Shown here: piece by piece, positions 16,688 to 63,606 of the stretch
How the letters are laid out: each line of letters begins with the position of its first letter
Numbering within the stretch: position 1 is the first letter of the stretch
NCBI RefSeq assembly: GCF_000586435.1
Contig: NZ_BAWH01000014.1
Coordinates: 1 to 64,000 of the forward strand
DNA: 64,000 bases
DNA from: Psychrobacter sp. JCM 18901
GTDB taxonomy: Bacteria; Pseudomonadota; Gammaproteobacteria; Pseudomonadales; Moraxellaceae
Direction: 5' to 3'
The notes under the pieces: model-generated
Seen by the model: only the letters and a program-made list of their open reading frames with translations
The model's database searches: none
What the model was told of the DNA's origin: nothing
Translations under genes and position numbers: made by a program

Positions 16688-17982
16688 ATGAAATTGAATA
16701 AAATAGCTCTAGCCCTTGTTGCTGTAGCGGCTGCACCGATGGCAGCTAATGCTGGTGTTACTATTAGCCCGTTGCTTCTTGGTTATCACATGACTGAAGA
16801 ATTCAGTGATACCTCTGACAAACAGCGTGAAGTTTTACGTACTGGTAAAGACTTATATGTAGATGCCAATGGTAATTCTATTGACGGCCGTGCTGGAAAC
16901 GTAACTAATGGTGGCGTAGCTAAAGAAAGCAGCCTATACACTGGTGCAGCTTTAGGTATTGAACTTACTCCTTCTACTCAGTTCCAAGTAGAGTATGGTG
17001 TATCTGACGCAAACGGTGAAGCTTCTGAAGATTCAGCTGATGCAGGCGTTAACCGCTTTGATATCGAACAAGAAATGATTTCTGGTAACTTCTTGATCGG
17101 TACTGAAGAATTCACTGGTTACACTGATAGCGCACTTAAGCCATACGTACTAGTAGGTGCTGGTCAGTCTAAAATCAAAGTAGAAAACCAAGAACAGTAT
17201 ACTAATTCTAACGGTGAAGTAGTTGCTGCTGGTACTGAAGTATCAAACTCTAAAGACACTATCGGTAACCTAGGTTAGGTGCTATGTATCGCATCAATGA
17301 CGCGCTAAGCCTACGTGGTGAAGCTCGTGCGATTCATAACTTTGACAACAACTGGTGGGAAGGCATGGCTTTGGCCGGTCTAGAAGTAGTACTAGGTGGC
17401 CATCTAGCACCTACAGTAGCAGTACCACCTATGCAAGAGCCAGTAGTTGACAATACTCCAGTAGTTGTTGTTGAAGCTGATCTTGATTCTGACGGTGATG
17501 GCGTACCTGATAGCATCGATGCATGCCCAGGCACTCCAATGAACGTTGTGGTTGATGAGCGCGGTTGCCCAGTACCAGTAGACATTACTGACGAACTGAA
17601 AATGGAACTACGTGTATTCTTTGATAACGACAAGTCAGCTATCAAAAACCAGTACAAGCCAGAAATCGCTAAAGTAGCAGAGAAGATGCGTGAGTATCCT
17701 AACTCTACCGCTCGTGTAGAAGGTCATGCTTCTAAGACTGGTCCTTCAGCACGTTATAACCAACGTCTATCTGAAGCTCGTGCCGTTGCTGTTAAATCTA
17801 TGCTAACTAATGAATTCGGTATTGCTCCAAACCGTCTATCAACTGTAGGCTATGGCTATGATAACCCAATCGCTTCAAACGACACTGAAGAAGGTCGTGC
17901 TATGAACCGTCGTGTTTATGCCATCATCACTGGTGACAAAACAATGACTGTTGAACAAACTAAAGATATGGTTGTTCAGTAA
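16688..17982 (+). CDS. OmpA/OprF-family outer-membrane protein (one frameshift)
   Basis: This is a probable major outer-membrane protein that anchors the envelope to peptidoglycan. It has a clean signal peptide (MKLNKIALALVAVAAAPMAANA), an N-terminal beta-barrel of about 250 residues, a calcium-binding thrombospondin type-3-like stretch (DLDSDGDGVPDSIDACPGTP) and a C-terminal OmpA domain with FDNDKSAI, VEGHASKTG and NRRVYAII. The last contains the expected peptidoglycan-binding Asp/Arg region (LSEARAVAV). The frame breaks near 17274, where one T is missing from CTAGGTTTAGGT. With it restored the protein is about 432 residues, comparable to OprF-like proteins. A strong GGAGG site precedes the ATG, and a clear terminator follows the stop. 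Confidence 0.88.
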
Positions 17983-18331
17983 GTATTAGCAAAATAACCG
18001 TATAGTTAAATATACAGTTACAAAAAAAGCCACCCAATGGGTGGCTTTTTTATTTATGTATTGAGAAAAGTGAGTTATTACATAAATTTATGAATCAATA
18101 ATGTTATACTAGCCACCCAAACATTCTGTAAATTAACAGTATGTACAATAGCATAGCAATCTGTATGATGAATTCGTCAGTATAGATATTTGATTGTATT
18201 GAACTTTTTTTATTTGATAGCATTCTTTTTTTGCGTCATCTTAGATTCAATATCTATCTGATTGATGATGAAAGTTTATTCAGCAGCGCTTACTGCTACT
18301 GCATTTTTTTAAGACGAAACGAGCATTTTAT
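17983..18331. other. Intergenic region between the OmpA-family gene and typA
   Basis: Apart from the porin terminator, this 349-base region is AT-rich and presumably holds the typA promoter. No further gene or structured element could be supported. Confidence 0.4.
18022..18051 (+). terminator. Intrinsic terminator after the OmpA-family gene
   Basis: A perfect seven-base stem GCCACCC/GGGTGGC with an AAT loop is followed by six T and preceded by seven A, so it could also work on the other strand. It begins 40 bases after the porin stop codon. Confidence 0.9.
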
Positions 18332-20180
18332 ATGGCGAACGATATCAAACACCTGCGTAACATTGCAATTATTGCCCACGTTGACCACGGTAAGACAACT
18401 TTGGTTGATAAGTTATTACATCAGTCTGGTACTTTTGGCGACCGTGCAAACATTGCTGAGCGTGCAATGGACTCAGGTGATATTGAGCAAGAACGTGGTA
18501 TTACCATTTTGGCTAAAAACACAGCTATCCGCTGGACAGATAAAACTTCAGAAACTGAATACCGTATCAACATTGTTGACACCCCAGGTCACGCCGATTT
18601 CGGTGGTGAAGTTGAGCGTGTAATGTCTATGGTTGATTGCGTACTTTTGGTTGTTGACGCTGTTGATGGCCCAATGCCTCAGACTCGTTTTGTGACGCAA
18701 AAAGCATTCGAACAAGGTCTAAAGCCGATCGTTGTTATTAACAAAATCGATCGTCCTGGCTCACGTCCTGATTGGGTAATGGATCAAATCTTTGATTTGT
18801 TTGACAACCTAGGTGCAAACGATGAGCAGCTTGATTTCCCAGTTGTTTATGCTTCAGCATTGAACGGTATTGCAGGTCTAGAAGCAGATGATTTAGCTGA
18901 TGATATGACGCCATTGTTCAAACTATCGTTGACGTTGTTCAGCCTCCACAGGTTGATGCTGACGCTCCGTTCCGTATGCAAATCTCAAGCCTTGACTACA
19001 ACAGCTTTGTTGGTGTAATCGGTATTGGCCGTATTCAGCGTGGTAAAGTTAAACTTAACACGCCAGTGACTGTCATTGATAAGCATGGTAAGACGCGTAA
19101 CGGCCGTATCCTAAAAATCATGGGTTACCATGGTCTTGATCGTATTGACGTTGAAGATGCACAAGCAGGTGATATCGTTTGTATCACGGGTATCGATGCA
19201 CTAAACATCTCTGATACTATTTGTGATCCTAACAACGTTGAAGCACTACCAGCACTAACGGTAGATCAACCTACAGTATCTATGAACTTCCAAGTAAATA
19301 ATTCACCATTTGCTGGTCGTGAAGGTAAGTTTGTGACTTCACGTAACATTCGTGAGCGTCTTGAGCGTGAATTGATTCACAACGTAGCATTGCGTGTAGA
19401 AGACACTGAGTCTCCTGACAAATTTAAAGTATCAGGCCGTGGTGAGCTTCATTTATCAGTACTTATCGAAAACATGCGCCGTGAAGGTTTTGAGCTAGGT
19501 GTTTCTGGTCCAGAAGTTATCGTTAAAGAAGTTGATGGTAAGCTACAAGAGCCGTATGAAAACGTTGTCTTCGATATCGAAGAAGAGCATCAAGGTTCTA
19601 TCATGGAGCAAGTTGGTTTACGCAAAGGCGAGATGACTAACATGGAGCTGGACGGTAAAGGCCGTATGCGTATTGAGGCAACCATACCAGCGCGTGGCTT
19701 GATCGGTTTCCGTTCTGAGTTCCTAACCCTGACTTCAGGTAGTGGTATCATGACCTCGAGCTTCTCACATTACGGTCCACAGAAGATCGGTGATGTTGGT
19801 GGTCGTTCTAACGGCGTATTGGTTTCTATGGCAAATGGTACTTGCTAGGTTTTGCTCTGTTTAACCTACAGAAACGTGGTAAGTTATTTGCTGAACCACA
19901 GCTTGAAGTTTATGAAGGTATGATTGTTGGGCTTAACTCTCGTAACGATGATATGACTGTTAACCCAACGACTGCTAAACAGCTAACCAACGTACGTGCT
20001 AGTGGTACTGACGAAGCATTGACGTTGACGCCAGCAGTGAAGTTCACTCTTGAGCAAGCGCTTGAATTTATTCAAGACGATGAGCTAGTCGAAGTAACGC
20101 CAAAAGCGGTACGTATTCGTAAACGCTACTTAACTGAAAGTGAGCGTAAGCGTCACGGCCGTGGTAAGAAAGGTGCTTAA
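18332..20180 (+). CDS. typA: Ribosome-associated GTPase TypA/BipA (two frameshifts)
   Basis: TypA/BipA is a translational GTPase needed for 50S assembly at low temperature and for stress adaptation. The N-terminal G domain has [17 protein letters not shown], the switch segment [28 protein letters not shown] and [15 protein letters not shown]. The later domains show [18 protein letters not shown] and the C-terminal [16 protein letters not shown] and RIRKRYL. Frames break near 18922, where one A is missing from TTCAAAACTATC, and near 19840, where one T is missing from ACTTTGCTAGG. Repair gives about 616 residues, the family length. The start ATG at 18332 is supported by the conserved start of homologues. 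A terminator follows about 100 bases after the stop. Confidence 0.95.
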
Positions 20181-56469: not shown

Positions 56470-58107
56470 TTATGGCTTTTGTGCTCGGTTTTGTAATGGA
56501 TCACCAATAAGCACGCTGCCTGAATTTTCAAGGCGCTGCTCATCACTCAATTTGCTCGCTGGCACTTTGGCCTTGCGCTTCCATTTTAAACTGAACAAAT
56601 CATCACGGCGGTCGATTAAGTTATGTACTGAGCCTTCATGACGAACGTGAGTAAGCTTGTCTAAGTTTACATCAGAGAAGAATACCATCTCCGTGTTGGC
56701 AGTGGTCTCTGCCATAATCGCATCATGTGGGAACGCAAAGTCTGAAGGTGAAAAAAATCGATGACTGAGCATACTGAATATCCAAGCTCTCAACTTGCGG
56801 TAAGTTACCCACTGACCCGCAAATCATCACATAGCATTCGTTTTCGATAGCGCGGGCTTGCGCGCAGTGGCGAACACGTAGATAGCCGTTCTTGGTATCA
56901 GTCCAGAAGGGCACAAACAAGATATCCATGTCATCAAGTGCCATTAGACGTGCAAGCTCAGGGAACTCAACATCATAGCAGACCAAGATACCGATACGAC
57001 CCGCATCTGTGTCGAATACTTTGACTTCATCGCCACCTTCGATTACCCAAGCGCTACGCTCATGCGGAGTAATATGAATTTTGCGTTGCTCTTCAACGGT
57101 GCCATCACGGCGGCACAGATAGCTGACGTTGTATAAGGTATCGTCTTCATCTAGTAACGGCATCGAACCGGTAATGACGTTGACGTTATAACTGACGGCT
57201 AAATGCGAGATTTCATTTTTGAACCACTCGGTATAACCCGCCAAAAATCGAATGGCAATATTTTGATCGGTTTCTTCGCATAGACCCATCAATGGCGCAT
57301 TGAAAAACTCTGGTAAGCAGGCAAAGTCTGAGTTGTAGTCAGCCATGATGTCGACAAAGAACTCAACCTGTTGCAATAGCTCCTCAGGTGATTCGACTTC
57401 ACGCATCTGCCACTGAATACCACCAATACGCACTTCAGACTTACGAGTATTAGGCTTATAGTCTTTAGGCTCATAGTAGATATTTGCCCACTCAAGCAAG
57501 GTAGCAAAGCCTTTTGATTGTTTATCATCTGGCAGATAAGCGGTCAAGATACGCTTAACGATAAAGCCATTAGATAGCTGGAACGACAAAGCTGAATCGT
57601 GAATTTCACGGCTTTCAACGGCATCAATATATTCGCCTGGAGTCAGATCCTTGTGATTATGATAGTTAGGTATACGCCCGCCAGCTAAGATAGCGCGGAA
57701 GTTCAACTGTCGGCATAACTCCTTGCGTGCATCATAAAGACGACGACCGAGACGGTAGCCGCGATAATCAGTCGATGAGTGCATCTAAACCATAAATGGC
57801 ATCACCTTCTGGATTGTCTCTAATGATTTCTTTTTGCCCAATCAAATCATCATAGGTATGTGGATTTGAAAACTTGGCATAGTCAACGCGCATGGAGAGC
57901 ACGATACCAATCAGCTGATCATGATCAAACAAAGCAATCTGACCTTCTGGAAAAGCATCGATTAAAGTATGAATGGTTGTCTTTGACCAAGCGCCACCCA
58001 AGTTTACATAGACACGATCCATCAAGGCTTTTAATTGTGGATAATCTTTTTTTCTTAATCTCAGCAATCGTGAGGTGAAAATCATCTAGTTTTTCCATCT
58101 TACTCAT
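56470..58107 (-). CDS. GNAT acetyltransferase fused to carbon-nitrogen hydrolase (three frameshifts)
   Basis: The N-terminal 200 or so residues are a GNAT domain, with YRGYRLGRRLYDARKELC as the acetyl-CoA-binding motif. The C-terminal 300 residues are a nitrilase-superfamily domain with the triad Glu in FACLPEFFNAPL, Lys in EQRKIHITPHERS and Cys in GILVCYDVEFPELA. Breaks lie in the seven-T run 58047-58053 (one too many), near 57775 (frame fits if two bases are missing, for example TTT read as T) and in the seven-A run 56751-56757 (one too many). The corrected length is about 545 residues. The same fusion is known from other gammaproteobacteria; its substrate is not known. The start is the ATG at 58107 (MSKMEKLDDFHLTI). 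Confidence 0.85.
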
Positions 58108-58646
58108 AATTTTCCTGTTTTAAATAGCTATTGAATGTAGTGTTATCAAATAATGGGGTCATAGCAAATTGATATGCCGATTTTTGTGCAAAAAAAGTAA
58201 TAAAAACATTCCAATAGGAAGATATTGTCGTTACAATAATTTATTGCCGTATTTACAATAGGTTATGTTGATATCTTAGGCTGTTTTGCTCACTATATTT
58301 CGTAATGATTTTGGCTAATATAGAGGACTAAAGGATAGCGAACGCCGCATTCTATACCACTTTATACCTATTGGGTTTGTGAGCACCGATAAGCGCATAA
58401 CCCTGCATTATCATTGTACCTGCGACTGTCTTGCTATTTATTATCTCAATATAGAATCTAAATAATATCTATCAGCACCTTTTGTTTTGCTTGTTATCAT
58501 AGCAAGCTGTAACGGTAATAACAGTCTCACGTAGTAAATATTTGCTACGTTTTTGTGAGTCAATTTTTTTGGTTCAACTCAGGCATAGTATTGTGTTGCT
58601 TGTATCGTTTAGCCGTATCTCATCGGCTTCTTAGGATTATTTTATT
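58108..58646. other. Divergent intergenic region upstream of the BLUF gene
   Basis: This 539-base AT-rich stretch separates the divergent GNAT-nitrilase and BLUF genes. It should contain both promoters. No gene or strong inverted repeat was seen. Confidence 0.4.
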
Positions 58647-59276
58647 ATGCCTTTAAATCATACCAATAGAATCATGAAGTGGGATGACATAGATGACTCC
58701 GCTTTGGTTCAGTTGGTTTATGTCAGTACGCTGACTCTTGGCTCGCGTCTGAGCACCTCTATTTTTGATGAAGTAGAAGGCCACGCACGTAACTACAATC
58801 AGCAGCATAACATCACAGGCACGCTATGCTACGGCAATGGTCACTTCCTGCAATGTATTGAAGGTAAAAAGTCAGACGTATTTAATCTGCAAGAGCGTAT
58901 CTTCGTCGATAGTCGTCATAAGAATGTAGAAGTATTGCTACTACAAGTTATCAATCATCGCAGCTTTGCCGACTGGCGTATGCGTTTGCTGTTTTTAGAG
59001 CGTTGGTTATGGTCGCCCGCAACCAAGAAACAGGCTGTACAATTATCTCCGTTTTTACCATTTGCGCCGCACGGTTGGTCATCTGATCGGACCGAACAGT
59101 TTTTGCAAATTATCAAAACTTTCGATAGTCCACCTCATATTAAGGCGGCAGGTATTACTTATAATGCATTGGGTAATATGGTGCGTCATATCGCGGCACC
59201 GCATCAGGCATTTCTGATTATTCAAGGGTTTTTGAGCATACTACTGGTCGTCGCATTGATACTGTTATATTTATAG
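58647..59276 (+). CDS. BLUF-domain blue-light receptor with C-terminal membrane segment
   Basis: The 209-residue protein has a BLUF domain at about residues 18-125 that would bind FAD and sense blue light. The three photocycle residues are visible: Tyr25 in QLVYVSTLT, Asn51 in RNYNQQHNITG, and Gln69 in GHFLQCIEG, with a Trp in FADWRMRL. After the BLUF core and its capping helices, a middle region with a Pro-rich segment (SPFLPFAPHGW) leads to a hydrophobic C-terminus of about 21 residues (FLIIQGFLSILLVVALILLYL), which suggests membrane anchoring. There is no EAL, GGDEF or other output domain. The gene is intact and monocistronic, followed by a strong terminator. Confidence 0.9.
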   Translation: MPLNHTNRIMKWDDIDDSALVQLVYVSTLTLGSRLSTSIFDEVEGHARNYNQQHNITGTLCYGNGHFLQCIEGKKSDVFNLQERIFVDSRHKNVEVLLLQVINHRSFADWRMRLLFLERWLWSPATKKQAVQLSPFLPFAPHGWSSDRTEQFLQIIKTFDSPPHIKAAGITYNALGNMVRHIAAPHQAFLIIQGFLSILLVVALILLYL

Positions 59277-59303: not shown

Positions 59304-59340
59304 AAAAAGACGCTAGCTCTCGGGTTAGCGTCTTTTTTTT
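59304..59340 (+). terminator. Intrinsic terminator after the BLUF gene
   Basis: AGACGCTA pairs with TAGCGTCT around a ten-base loop, followed by eight T and preceded by five A. It may also serve the convergent dehydrogenase gene. Confidence 0.88.
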
Positions 59341-62514: not shown

Positions 62515-63606
62515 TTAATTGGCTTTAGTATTGTTTGCAGCTTCCGCTTGTAGACGCGCTTCCGTCTTAGCAGCTTTACGTTTTTCGATTACATCCATCA
62601 CGTCACTACCGATATGGGCTTCGCCACGCTTTTTCGCTAGCTGCATTTGGTGCTCACGCTCACGGAAACGGGCTTTCTGCTCGTCGGTCGCTTTGTCGAT
62701 ACAGTGTGGGCATGACTCGCCTTTGATATAGGCAGGGCTTTGCATCTCCTCAGCGGTGATTGGCATACGGCAAGCAAAGCATTGCTCGTAGCTGCCTTTT
62801 TCTAAGTTATGGTTTACTGACACACGGTTGTCAAAAACAAAGCAGTCGCCTTGCCACATAGAGTCACTGGCAGGGACTTCTTCAAGGTATTTTAGGATAC
62901 CGCCTTCTAAATGATAGACCTCTTCAAACCCTTGCTCGCGTAAATAGGCAGTAGATTTTTCGCAGCGGATACCACCTGTACAGAACATCGCCACTTTTTT
63001 TTATGCTTGGTTGGATCTAGCTCTTTTGAAACGTATTCTGGAAACTCGCGGAACGTTTCAGTGTTCGGATTGACTGCATTTTGGAAGGTGCCGATTTGCA
63101 CCTCATAATCGTTACGCGTATCGATCAAGGTGACTTCAGGATCTGAGATCAACGCATTCCACTCGCTTGGCTTTACATAGCGACCAACGGACTCCAATGG
63201 GTCGATATTCTCGACACCCATAGTGACGATTTCTTTTTTTTAGCTTCACCTTAGTGCGATAAAAAGGCTGTGCGTCAGTATAGGATTCTTTGAAGGTAAA
63301 CGTACCAATCGCCTCAATACTACGCAGGTAGTCAAGTACGGCATCGATACCTTGACGCGTACCAGAAATCGTACCATTAATGCCTTCGCTTGCAAGTAAC
63401 AACGTACCTTTCACATCGTGATCGAGCATAGTGTTTAGGATAGGCTCACGATATTGCTCAAAATCAGCAAAGCGCGTGAACTTATATAGTGCGGCAACGA
63501 CGATATTATTAGTTACACTATCGTATACAGGGGCTGATTTATTGTCAGTTGTAGTAGGGCTGTGAGTGGTGCTATCTTGGATATTGCTACTTTGAGTGGT
63601 ACTCAT
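62515..63606 (-). CDS. trhO: tRNA uridine(34) hydroxylase, rhodanese-related (TrhO/YceA; two frameshifts)
   Basis: TrhO hydroxylates U34 of certain tRNAs on the way to 5-carboxymethoxyuridine, using molecular oxygen. The N-terminal acylphosphatase-like part ([35 protein letters not shown]) is followed by a rhodanese domain with the active Cys in [12 protein letters not shown] and the preceding [16 protein letters not shown]-terminal region has four Cys arranged as CFAC and CPHC, possibly metal-binding. Breaks lie in the eight-T run at 63234-63241 (one too many) and in the eight-T run at 62995-63002 (fits nine or six). The corrected length is about 363 residues. The start is the ATG at 63606. 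Confidence 0.9.

Follow-up and report, generated by a model that had tools for sequence, protein, structure and literature searches.

A short BLUF photoreceptor of Psychrobacter with a predicted C-tail membrane anchor and a conserved juxtamembrane segment

Introduction

The signal output of short BLUF photoreceptors is an open question, because these proteins have no output domain. The PixD proteins (Tll0078/TePixD and Slr1694) are soluble chains of about 143-163 residues in which the BLUF domain is followed by two C-terminal helices. BlsA of Acinetobacter baumannii (6w6z/6w72) has the same plan and fold and ends at residue 156 (PMC6695109). In Rhodopseudomonas palustris the short BLUF protein PapB signals via its C-terminal helices to a separate partner, PapA (PMC8846402), a precedent for a helix-to-partner route. 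For the Moraxellaceae, a 2013 paper (PMC3554667) states that the BLUF of Psychrobacter groups separately from those of Acinetobacter, and that among the other genera of the family named there Psychrobacter alone has BLUF genes.

Membrane attachment has been described for unrelated proteins of similar layout. ElaB, a C-tail anchored protein, is described as having its transmembrane segment at the C-terminus and lacking an N-terminal signal, and its cytoplasmic domain is unrelated to BLUF; judged by title, the papers found on such C-tail anchored proteins include none on a photoreceptor. The open-licence literature on BLUF in Psychrobacter or the Moraxellaceae and on tail-anchored or transmembrane BLUF proteins, within the excerpts available from it, describes no membrane-anchored BLUF.

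Here we describe a BLUF gene in a window of 64,000 nucleotides from Psychrobacter sp. JCM 18901 (contig NZ_BAWH01000014.1). Its product, from the same bacterial family as BlsA, shares the plan of PixD and BlsA and is predicted to continue for some 50 residues beyond it, through a conserved linker into a membrane anchor.

Methods

A scan of prokaryote genomes returned 62 loci, namely 61 from Psychrobacter, referred to below as orthologues, and one from Mucilaginibacter (L068, E 1e-18), which was excluded from the 61. A protein was called tail-anchored when it had one hydrophobic window of at least 1.8, at most 25 residues from its C-terminal end. Terminators 3' of orthologues were recognised by a strict test (perfect stem of at least 7, T-rich tail). 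The upstream element was modelled (model R1) from 26 blocks, drawn from 26 of the 61 orthologous loci. AlphaFold was run on 35 close orthologues, which gave a weak C-terminal half, and on a 116-row alignment, which gave the better model. Rows for the trees excluded L059, L068 and hits that spanned fewer than 80 residues; near-copies were then collapsed by clustering (323 to 131 rows), and L003, L280 and L288 were dropped to leave 128 rows. A careful tree of 73 chosen rows was built from the BLUF domain with 45 further residues, the tail being omitted (138 usable columns).

Results

The reading frame is intact, starts with ATG and encodes 209 residues (Table 1); we call the protein paralogue A. 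BLUF (PF04940) is its sole Pfam domain (E 1.4e-24; 86.4 bits vs a cut-off of 25). A search of the whole protein against NCBIfam gave no match, and Pfam matches in the tail region reached only E 0.0053 or worse, with no family present in more than two of 26 members. By its domain content, then, the protein belongs to the short BLUF class and has no output domain, as a first-pass annotation of the window had said; neither an enzymatic nor a DNA-binding one was found. Tyr25, Asn51 and Gln69, which that annotation had listed, are invariant in all 55 distinct orthologue sequences, as are Trp110 and Met112. We take these to be the photocycle residues from what is known of AppA, an assignment with which the PDB sequence alignments agree.

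Table 1. Positions of the features of the BLUF locus within the window
Feature	Position	Strand	Basis
Upstream element, 68 bp, with imperfect inverted repeat	58493..58560	+	Conserved; ends 86 bp 5' of the start codon
Whole protein (paralogue A, short BLUF with tail anchor), 209 aa	58647..59276	+	Reading frame; Pfam; 61 Psychrobacter orthologues
BLUF photosensor domain, residues 20-112	58704..58982	+	Pfam; invariant key residues
PixD/BlsA-type C-terminal helices, residues 113-162	58983..59132	+	AlphaFold helices 124-136 and 146-157; Foldseek
Juxtamembrane segment, residues 163-187, including the first half of PHQAF (185-189)	59133..59207	+	Lowest dN/dS; 15 of 24 positions (164-187) invariant
C-terminal transmembrane helix (predicted), residues 188-209	59208..59273	+	Hydrophobicity; uncharged in 55/55; AlphaFold helix 187-208
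Intrinsic terminator, probably common to the convergent oxidase gene	59304..59337	+	15-pair stem and T run

The predicted structure (116-row alignment; mean pLDDT 81, pTM 0.71) found its top Foldseek matches in TePixD, Tll0078, AppA-BLUF, Slr1694, BlrB and, within the first 30, BlsA. For the PixD and BlsA chains among the listed hits, TM-scores normalised by target were 0.75-0.86; the best E, for PixD, was 4.7e-12, and the closest PDB sequence was that of Tll0078/PixD (E 2.9e-17). In the model, the soluble part is a PixD/BlsA fold with a two-helix C-terminal cap, so that the protein as predicted is a short BLUF of this type plus the additional linker and anchor.

Beyond the cap, the hydrophobic C-terminal helix reported in the first-pass annotation scores as a membrane segment. 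The top 19-residue window begins at residue 189 (Kyte-Doolittle mean 2.93, scored on the identical protein L007), its Wimley-White octanol sum is -14.7 kcal/mol vs -3.1 for the next best segment (residues 22-40, the first BLUF strand), and AlphaFold predicts the helix with a pLDDT of ∼94. Downstream of the HQxF motif, D, E, K and R are absent from all 55 distinct orthologues, and the 25 residues preceding the motif carry a net charge of +1 to +2, a bias that fits an N-in/C-out topology. The best hydrophobic window leaves 0-3 residues at the C-terminus in 60/61 orthologues. Because nothing follows the helix, C-tail anchor is the correct term, and the sequence has the corresponding layout of a single, extreme C-terminal helix with no N-terminal signal or other predicted membrane segment.

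When the protein's own letters were shuffled, a C-terminal window of at least 1.8 arose in 844 of 20,000 trials; chance alone would be an uncommon yet possible source of such a tail, and is ruled out because the orthologues retain it. A comparison of homologues, which the first-pass annotation had proposed as a check, found the helix kept in 60 of the 61 Psychrobacter orthologues, the sole exception (L059) having a stop at residue 198, within the helix. More distant short BLUFs do lack the hydrophobic tail. Stretch L140 (genome G186), on a contig as long as that of L059, shows the truncated copy seen in L059 and a complete second copy ∼280 bp downstream. Three loci (L065, L140, L142) carry a second tandem copy of A ∼1 kb downstream, whose tail has diverged but keeps HQAF.

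The strongest constraint lies just before the helix. Corrected dN/dS over the 46 distinct orthologues of 209 aa, in rough values since synonymous sites are close to saturation, was 0.36 (residues 2-19), ∼0.07 (BLUF domain), 0.06 (residues 113-162), ∼0.03 (residues 163-187) and 0.05 (helix). Mean identity among the 55 distinct sequences was 0.949 over residues 164-187, compared with 0.829 for the BLUF domain and 0.828 for the helix. PHQAF is invariant in these 55, the polar residues H186, Q187 and Q193, at or inside the helix start, are invariant in a 35-row alignment, and HQ[AV]F recurred in 19 of 20 further Psychrobacter genomes fetched, namely the 19 with a BLUF frame. In G051 the gene is apparently decayed: the sole match to the tail is a frame of 46 aa, and the search for a BLUF frame gave nothing. 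Since the juxtamembrane stretch is the most conserved part of the protein, the pattern argues that the tail region does more than tether passively. A docking role for it rests on this conservation, because AlphaFold gives residues 163-174 a pLDDT below 50.

The gene is flanked by a carbon-nitrogen hydrolase gene and, on the other side, by a convergent gene for an FAD-linked oxidase, the latter followed by a serA-like gene (Pfam names); its neighbours are on the opposite strand. A short frame at 57768-58085, presumably a GNAT protein, had no Pfam match. The hydrolase, short frame and oxidase were each found at 59/61 loci and the serA-like gene at 58/61. Neighbour order was the same at all 57 loci showing the first three genes, 56 of them also with the serA-like gene; some of the remaining four end too early to reveal it. 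The hydrolase gene (56470-58085) and a rhodanese-like gene (62515-63606) are each split into overlapping frames in the window, and the gene matching the former is an unbroken 572-aa frame in L140. Because neighbouring genes are broken and the hydrolase is a single frame there, this assembly probably contains indel errors; the BLUF gene is unaffected.

The first-pass annotation had called the gene stand-alone, with its own promoter region and terminator. The opposite-strand neighbours and the terminator stem bear this out, and a single-gene transcription unit is supported as read from the sequence. A terminator scan of the region found four sites against 2.7 expected, the tabulated one being the longest, and a strict terminator-like stem follows 39 of the 61 orthologues. 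The promoter part of that claim fared unevenly, in that a sigma-70 scan of the region did no better than chance (11 found vs 10.7 expected), while a conserved upstream element stands in contrast to unconserved flanking DNA. Model R1 matches 60 of the 61 orthologous loci, including the 26 used in building it, and is missing in L061. In the whole genome (84.7% complete) it has one clear match (E 6.2e-19), the second-ranked hit (E 0.63) being this site read from the opposite strand, and there is no sign of a wider regulon within this genome. Read as an RNA hairpin, the element showed compensatory change in 0 of 8 pairs, no excess over shuffles. As the stem is without compensatory changes a DNA site is likelier, and as the element is also unique in the genome it is probably a promoter or operator.

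A second tail-anchored paralogue, B, occurs in most Psychrobacter genomes. Among 348 genomes, a profile of residues 113-209 matched 103 of 105 from Psychrobacter, three from genus code g7 and no further member of the Moraxellaceae; in an evenly drawn sample of the order, 12 of 390 genomes matched, all Psychrobacter. By the tail profile at E 1e-20 or better, A is present in 97/105 Psychrobacter genomes, and B (query from L136) at E 1e-50 or better in 91/105, a threshold that counts as B the proteins of G310 and G138 (51% and 47% identity), in which the other tail-anchored copy is placed between A and B in the tree and the labels are unsure. All 30 B loci read are tail-anchored, and each has HQ[AV]F. 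The window's genome has the two paralogues on different contigs; B (L134, G000:C52:52000-52606), downstream of what we take to be an ispD-like gene, is split by a frame change there and intact in the listed relatives that match it over the full length. The same genome holds remnants of soluble BLUF genes, some of them interrupted by stops (L135, G000:C38, ∼17836-19536); relatives have an intact tandem pair of such genes.

Across the family, BLUF was found in 11 of 16 Moraxellaceae genus codes, which bears on the statement in PMC3554667, although the codes are not matchable to the genera named there. Eight of the 11 codes read include tail-anchored BLUFs. In distinct frames from the best-scoring loci, an uneven sample in which Psychrobacter is over-represented since its tail was the query, tail-anchored proteins made up 97/141 in Psychrobacter, 10/15 in g7, 26/29 in g9, 1/3 in g5, 1/1 in g10, 1/2 in g11, 1/1 in g12 and 1/2 in g14, and none in g8 (0/1), g13 (0/3) or g15 (0/3), the last barely read although many g15 genomes have BLUF. 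The Psychrobacter frames without an anchor include the soluble pair and two truncated copies of A. Outside the family, 2 of the 63 BLUFs read were tail-anchored and six had several membrane segments, hits with lengths fitting a tail (such as G406 and G438) falling outside these counts. Acinetobacter and Psychrobacter also carry BLUF genes without a hydrophobic tail on small plasmids (L290, L291; excluded from the tail-anchor counts). Genus code g15 is probably Acinetobacter, because it holds BlsA-like proteins (L096 vs BlsA, E 1.3e-37). Two g9 genomes have at least seven tail-anchored BLUFs each. In g9 we also noted six to twelve BLUF matches per genome (L187, L197), most of those read being tail-anchored, and frames in which a single anchor comes after two or three BLUF domains.

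In the tree, A, B and proteins of g7 and g10 form one clade spanning three genus codes (bootstrap 100, SH-aLRT 98), in which 22 of 24 rows are tail-anchored, the tail-less ones being the g7 rows L165 and L168. HQxF is present in A, B, L137 (g7) and L147 (g10); it is absent, with the hydrophobic tail kept, from L146 (the second tail-anchored BLUF of G008) and from g7 loci L151 (two), L152 and L156. Another clade (91/93, not starred) holds tail-anchored BLUFs of g5, g9, g11, g12, g14 and two outside families, together with the g9 expansion and g15. The tail label changes 10 times across the Moraxellaceae in the careful tree, at least five of these changes being forced by starred branches, which speaks against a single origin; on this topology the anchor was gained or lost several times, gain and loss being indistinguishable because the root was not inferred.

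Pfam searches of the conserved neighbours of A found no output gene, so any partner would be encoded elsewhere. Inspected by eye over ∼1.5 kb per side, the flanks of 18 further tail-anchored BLUF loci shared no common gene, except that the g10 homologue L147, like A, adjoins a serA-like gene, which supports common descent of the two. EAL proteins were considered as partners. Among the 105 Psychrobacter genomes, 91 have both B (E 1e-50 or better) and EAL, six have EAL only, eight have neither and none has B only. The eight (G008, G105, G108, G111, G130, G322, G327, G333) lack canonical B and form one clade on the A protein (bootstrap 100, SH-aLRT 100), so the co-variation may reflect a single event, and EAL is a weak lead as a partner of B. 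For A, whose conserved neighbours include no EAL gene, an EAL partner is unlikely, because A persists in all eight EAL-less genomes. Most other Psychrobacter encode two EAL proteins of ∼570 and ∼700 aa, with a PAS-GGDEF-EAL arrangement in the two read.

Discussion

The computation gives a BLUF domain with its key residues, a PixD/BlsA fold, a hydrophobic tail that is, like the juxtamembrane segment, under strong selection, and a single-gene unit. Not covered by the first-pass annotation were the conserved motif next to the membrane, paralogue B with its own tail anchor, and the occurrence of the architecture elsewhere in the Moraxellaceae. Our preferred reading, to which we give a probability of about 0.6, is that A is a short BLUF receptor held at the inner membrane by its C-tail anchor, with the juxtamembrane segment docking a membrane partner. 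According to this model, the flavin domain would lie in the cytoplasm; light would alter the hydrogen-bond network around a bound flavin (Tyr25/Gln69), as in other BLUF proteins; the two PixD-like helices would relay the signal to the conserved segment (about residues 163-193); and this segment would dock a putative partner in or at the membrane.

One may alternatively propose that the anchor only positions the receptor, which would catch or release a soluble regulator in a light-dependent manner, as BlsA is reported to act on Fur, and so keep the regulator membrane-bound in one of the states. The BlsA/PixD-like fold fits such a scheme, as do the soluble BLUF pairs that Psychrobacter genomes also carry, and BlsA acts through Fur in A. 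baumannii according to PMC5955987. However, the strongest selection falls beside the membrane, and the invariant H186, Q187 and Q193 exceed what a plain tether needs, so we regard sequestration of this kind as rather unlikely. The conserved segment could instead be the joint interface of a mixed receptor, in which A pairs with B or with a soluble BLUF and the complex gives the output. Both A and B are present in most Psychrobacter genomes (97/105 and 91/105), LERW and HQAF are common to the two, and tail-anchored and soluble BLUF genes adjoin in g9 loci L098 and L174; yet A is kept in the eight genomes without canonical B and lies on a different contig from B in the window's genome, which leaves a mixed receptor improbable. 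That A is a degenerate or non-photoactive BLUF with an incidental packing helix at its end, as the truncation of L059 and the decay in G051 might suggest, is most improbable given the invariant photocycle residues, a dN/dS below 0.1 everywhere except the first 19 residues, and a helix uncharged in 55/55 sequences, which would be unusual for soluble packing.

The preferred model, with its anchor and docking segment, differs from each described system in some part. There is no PixE-like gene among the conserved neighbours of A. The proposed route through C-terminal helices to a partner resembles that of PapB-PapA, while these neighbours include no EAL gene. The BlsA-like g15 proteins fall in a different clade from A, beside the tail-anchored BLUFs of g9. 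BLUF-PsiE proteins also place membrane segments after BLUF (L264, with similar tails in L204, L263, L265, L266 and L268), but in L264 these belong to a PsiE domain (E 4.8e-26) of ∼200 residues with four hydrophobic windows, in a clade separate from A. The tail-anchored variant of the short BLUF class is real, conserved and, as far as the open-licence literature searched shows, unreported.

With the family in mind, we consider it an evenly balanced proposition that short BLUFs bound to the membrane by a C-tail anchor make up a widespread and so far undescribed class of blue-light receptors in the Moraxellaceae, and that those in the clade of A mostly have a juxtamembrane HQxF motif which docks a membrane partner, with two such receptors in most Psychrobacter and at least seven in each of two g9 genomes. 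The soluble BlsA-like branch, next to tail-anchored BLUFs in the tree, may on this account have lost an anchor. The conserved anchor and the invariant motif beside it turn the search for a partner towards membrane proteins and name residues to mutate, in a culturable genus. If true, the model would define a membrane-localised class of BLUF receptors and might help to position light-controlled proteins at bacterial membranes. For the bacteria themselves, our findings suggest that one group senses blue light from the inner membrane, with a putative partner passing the signal on.
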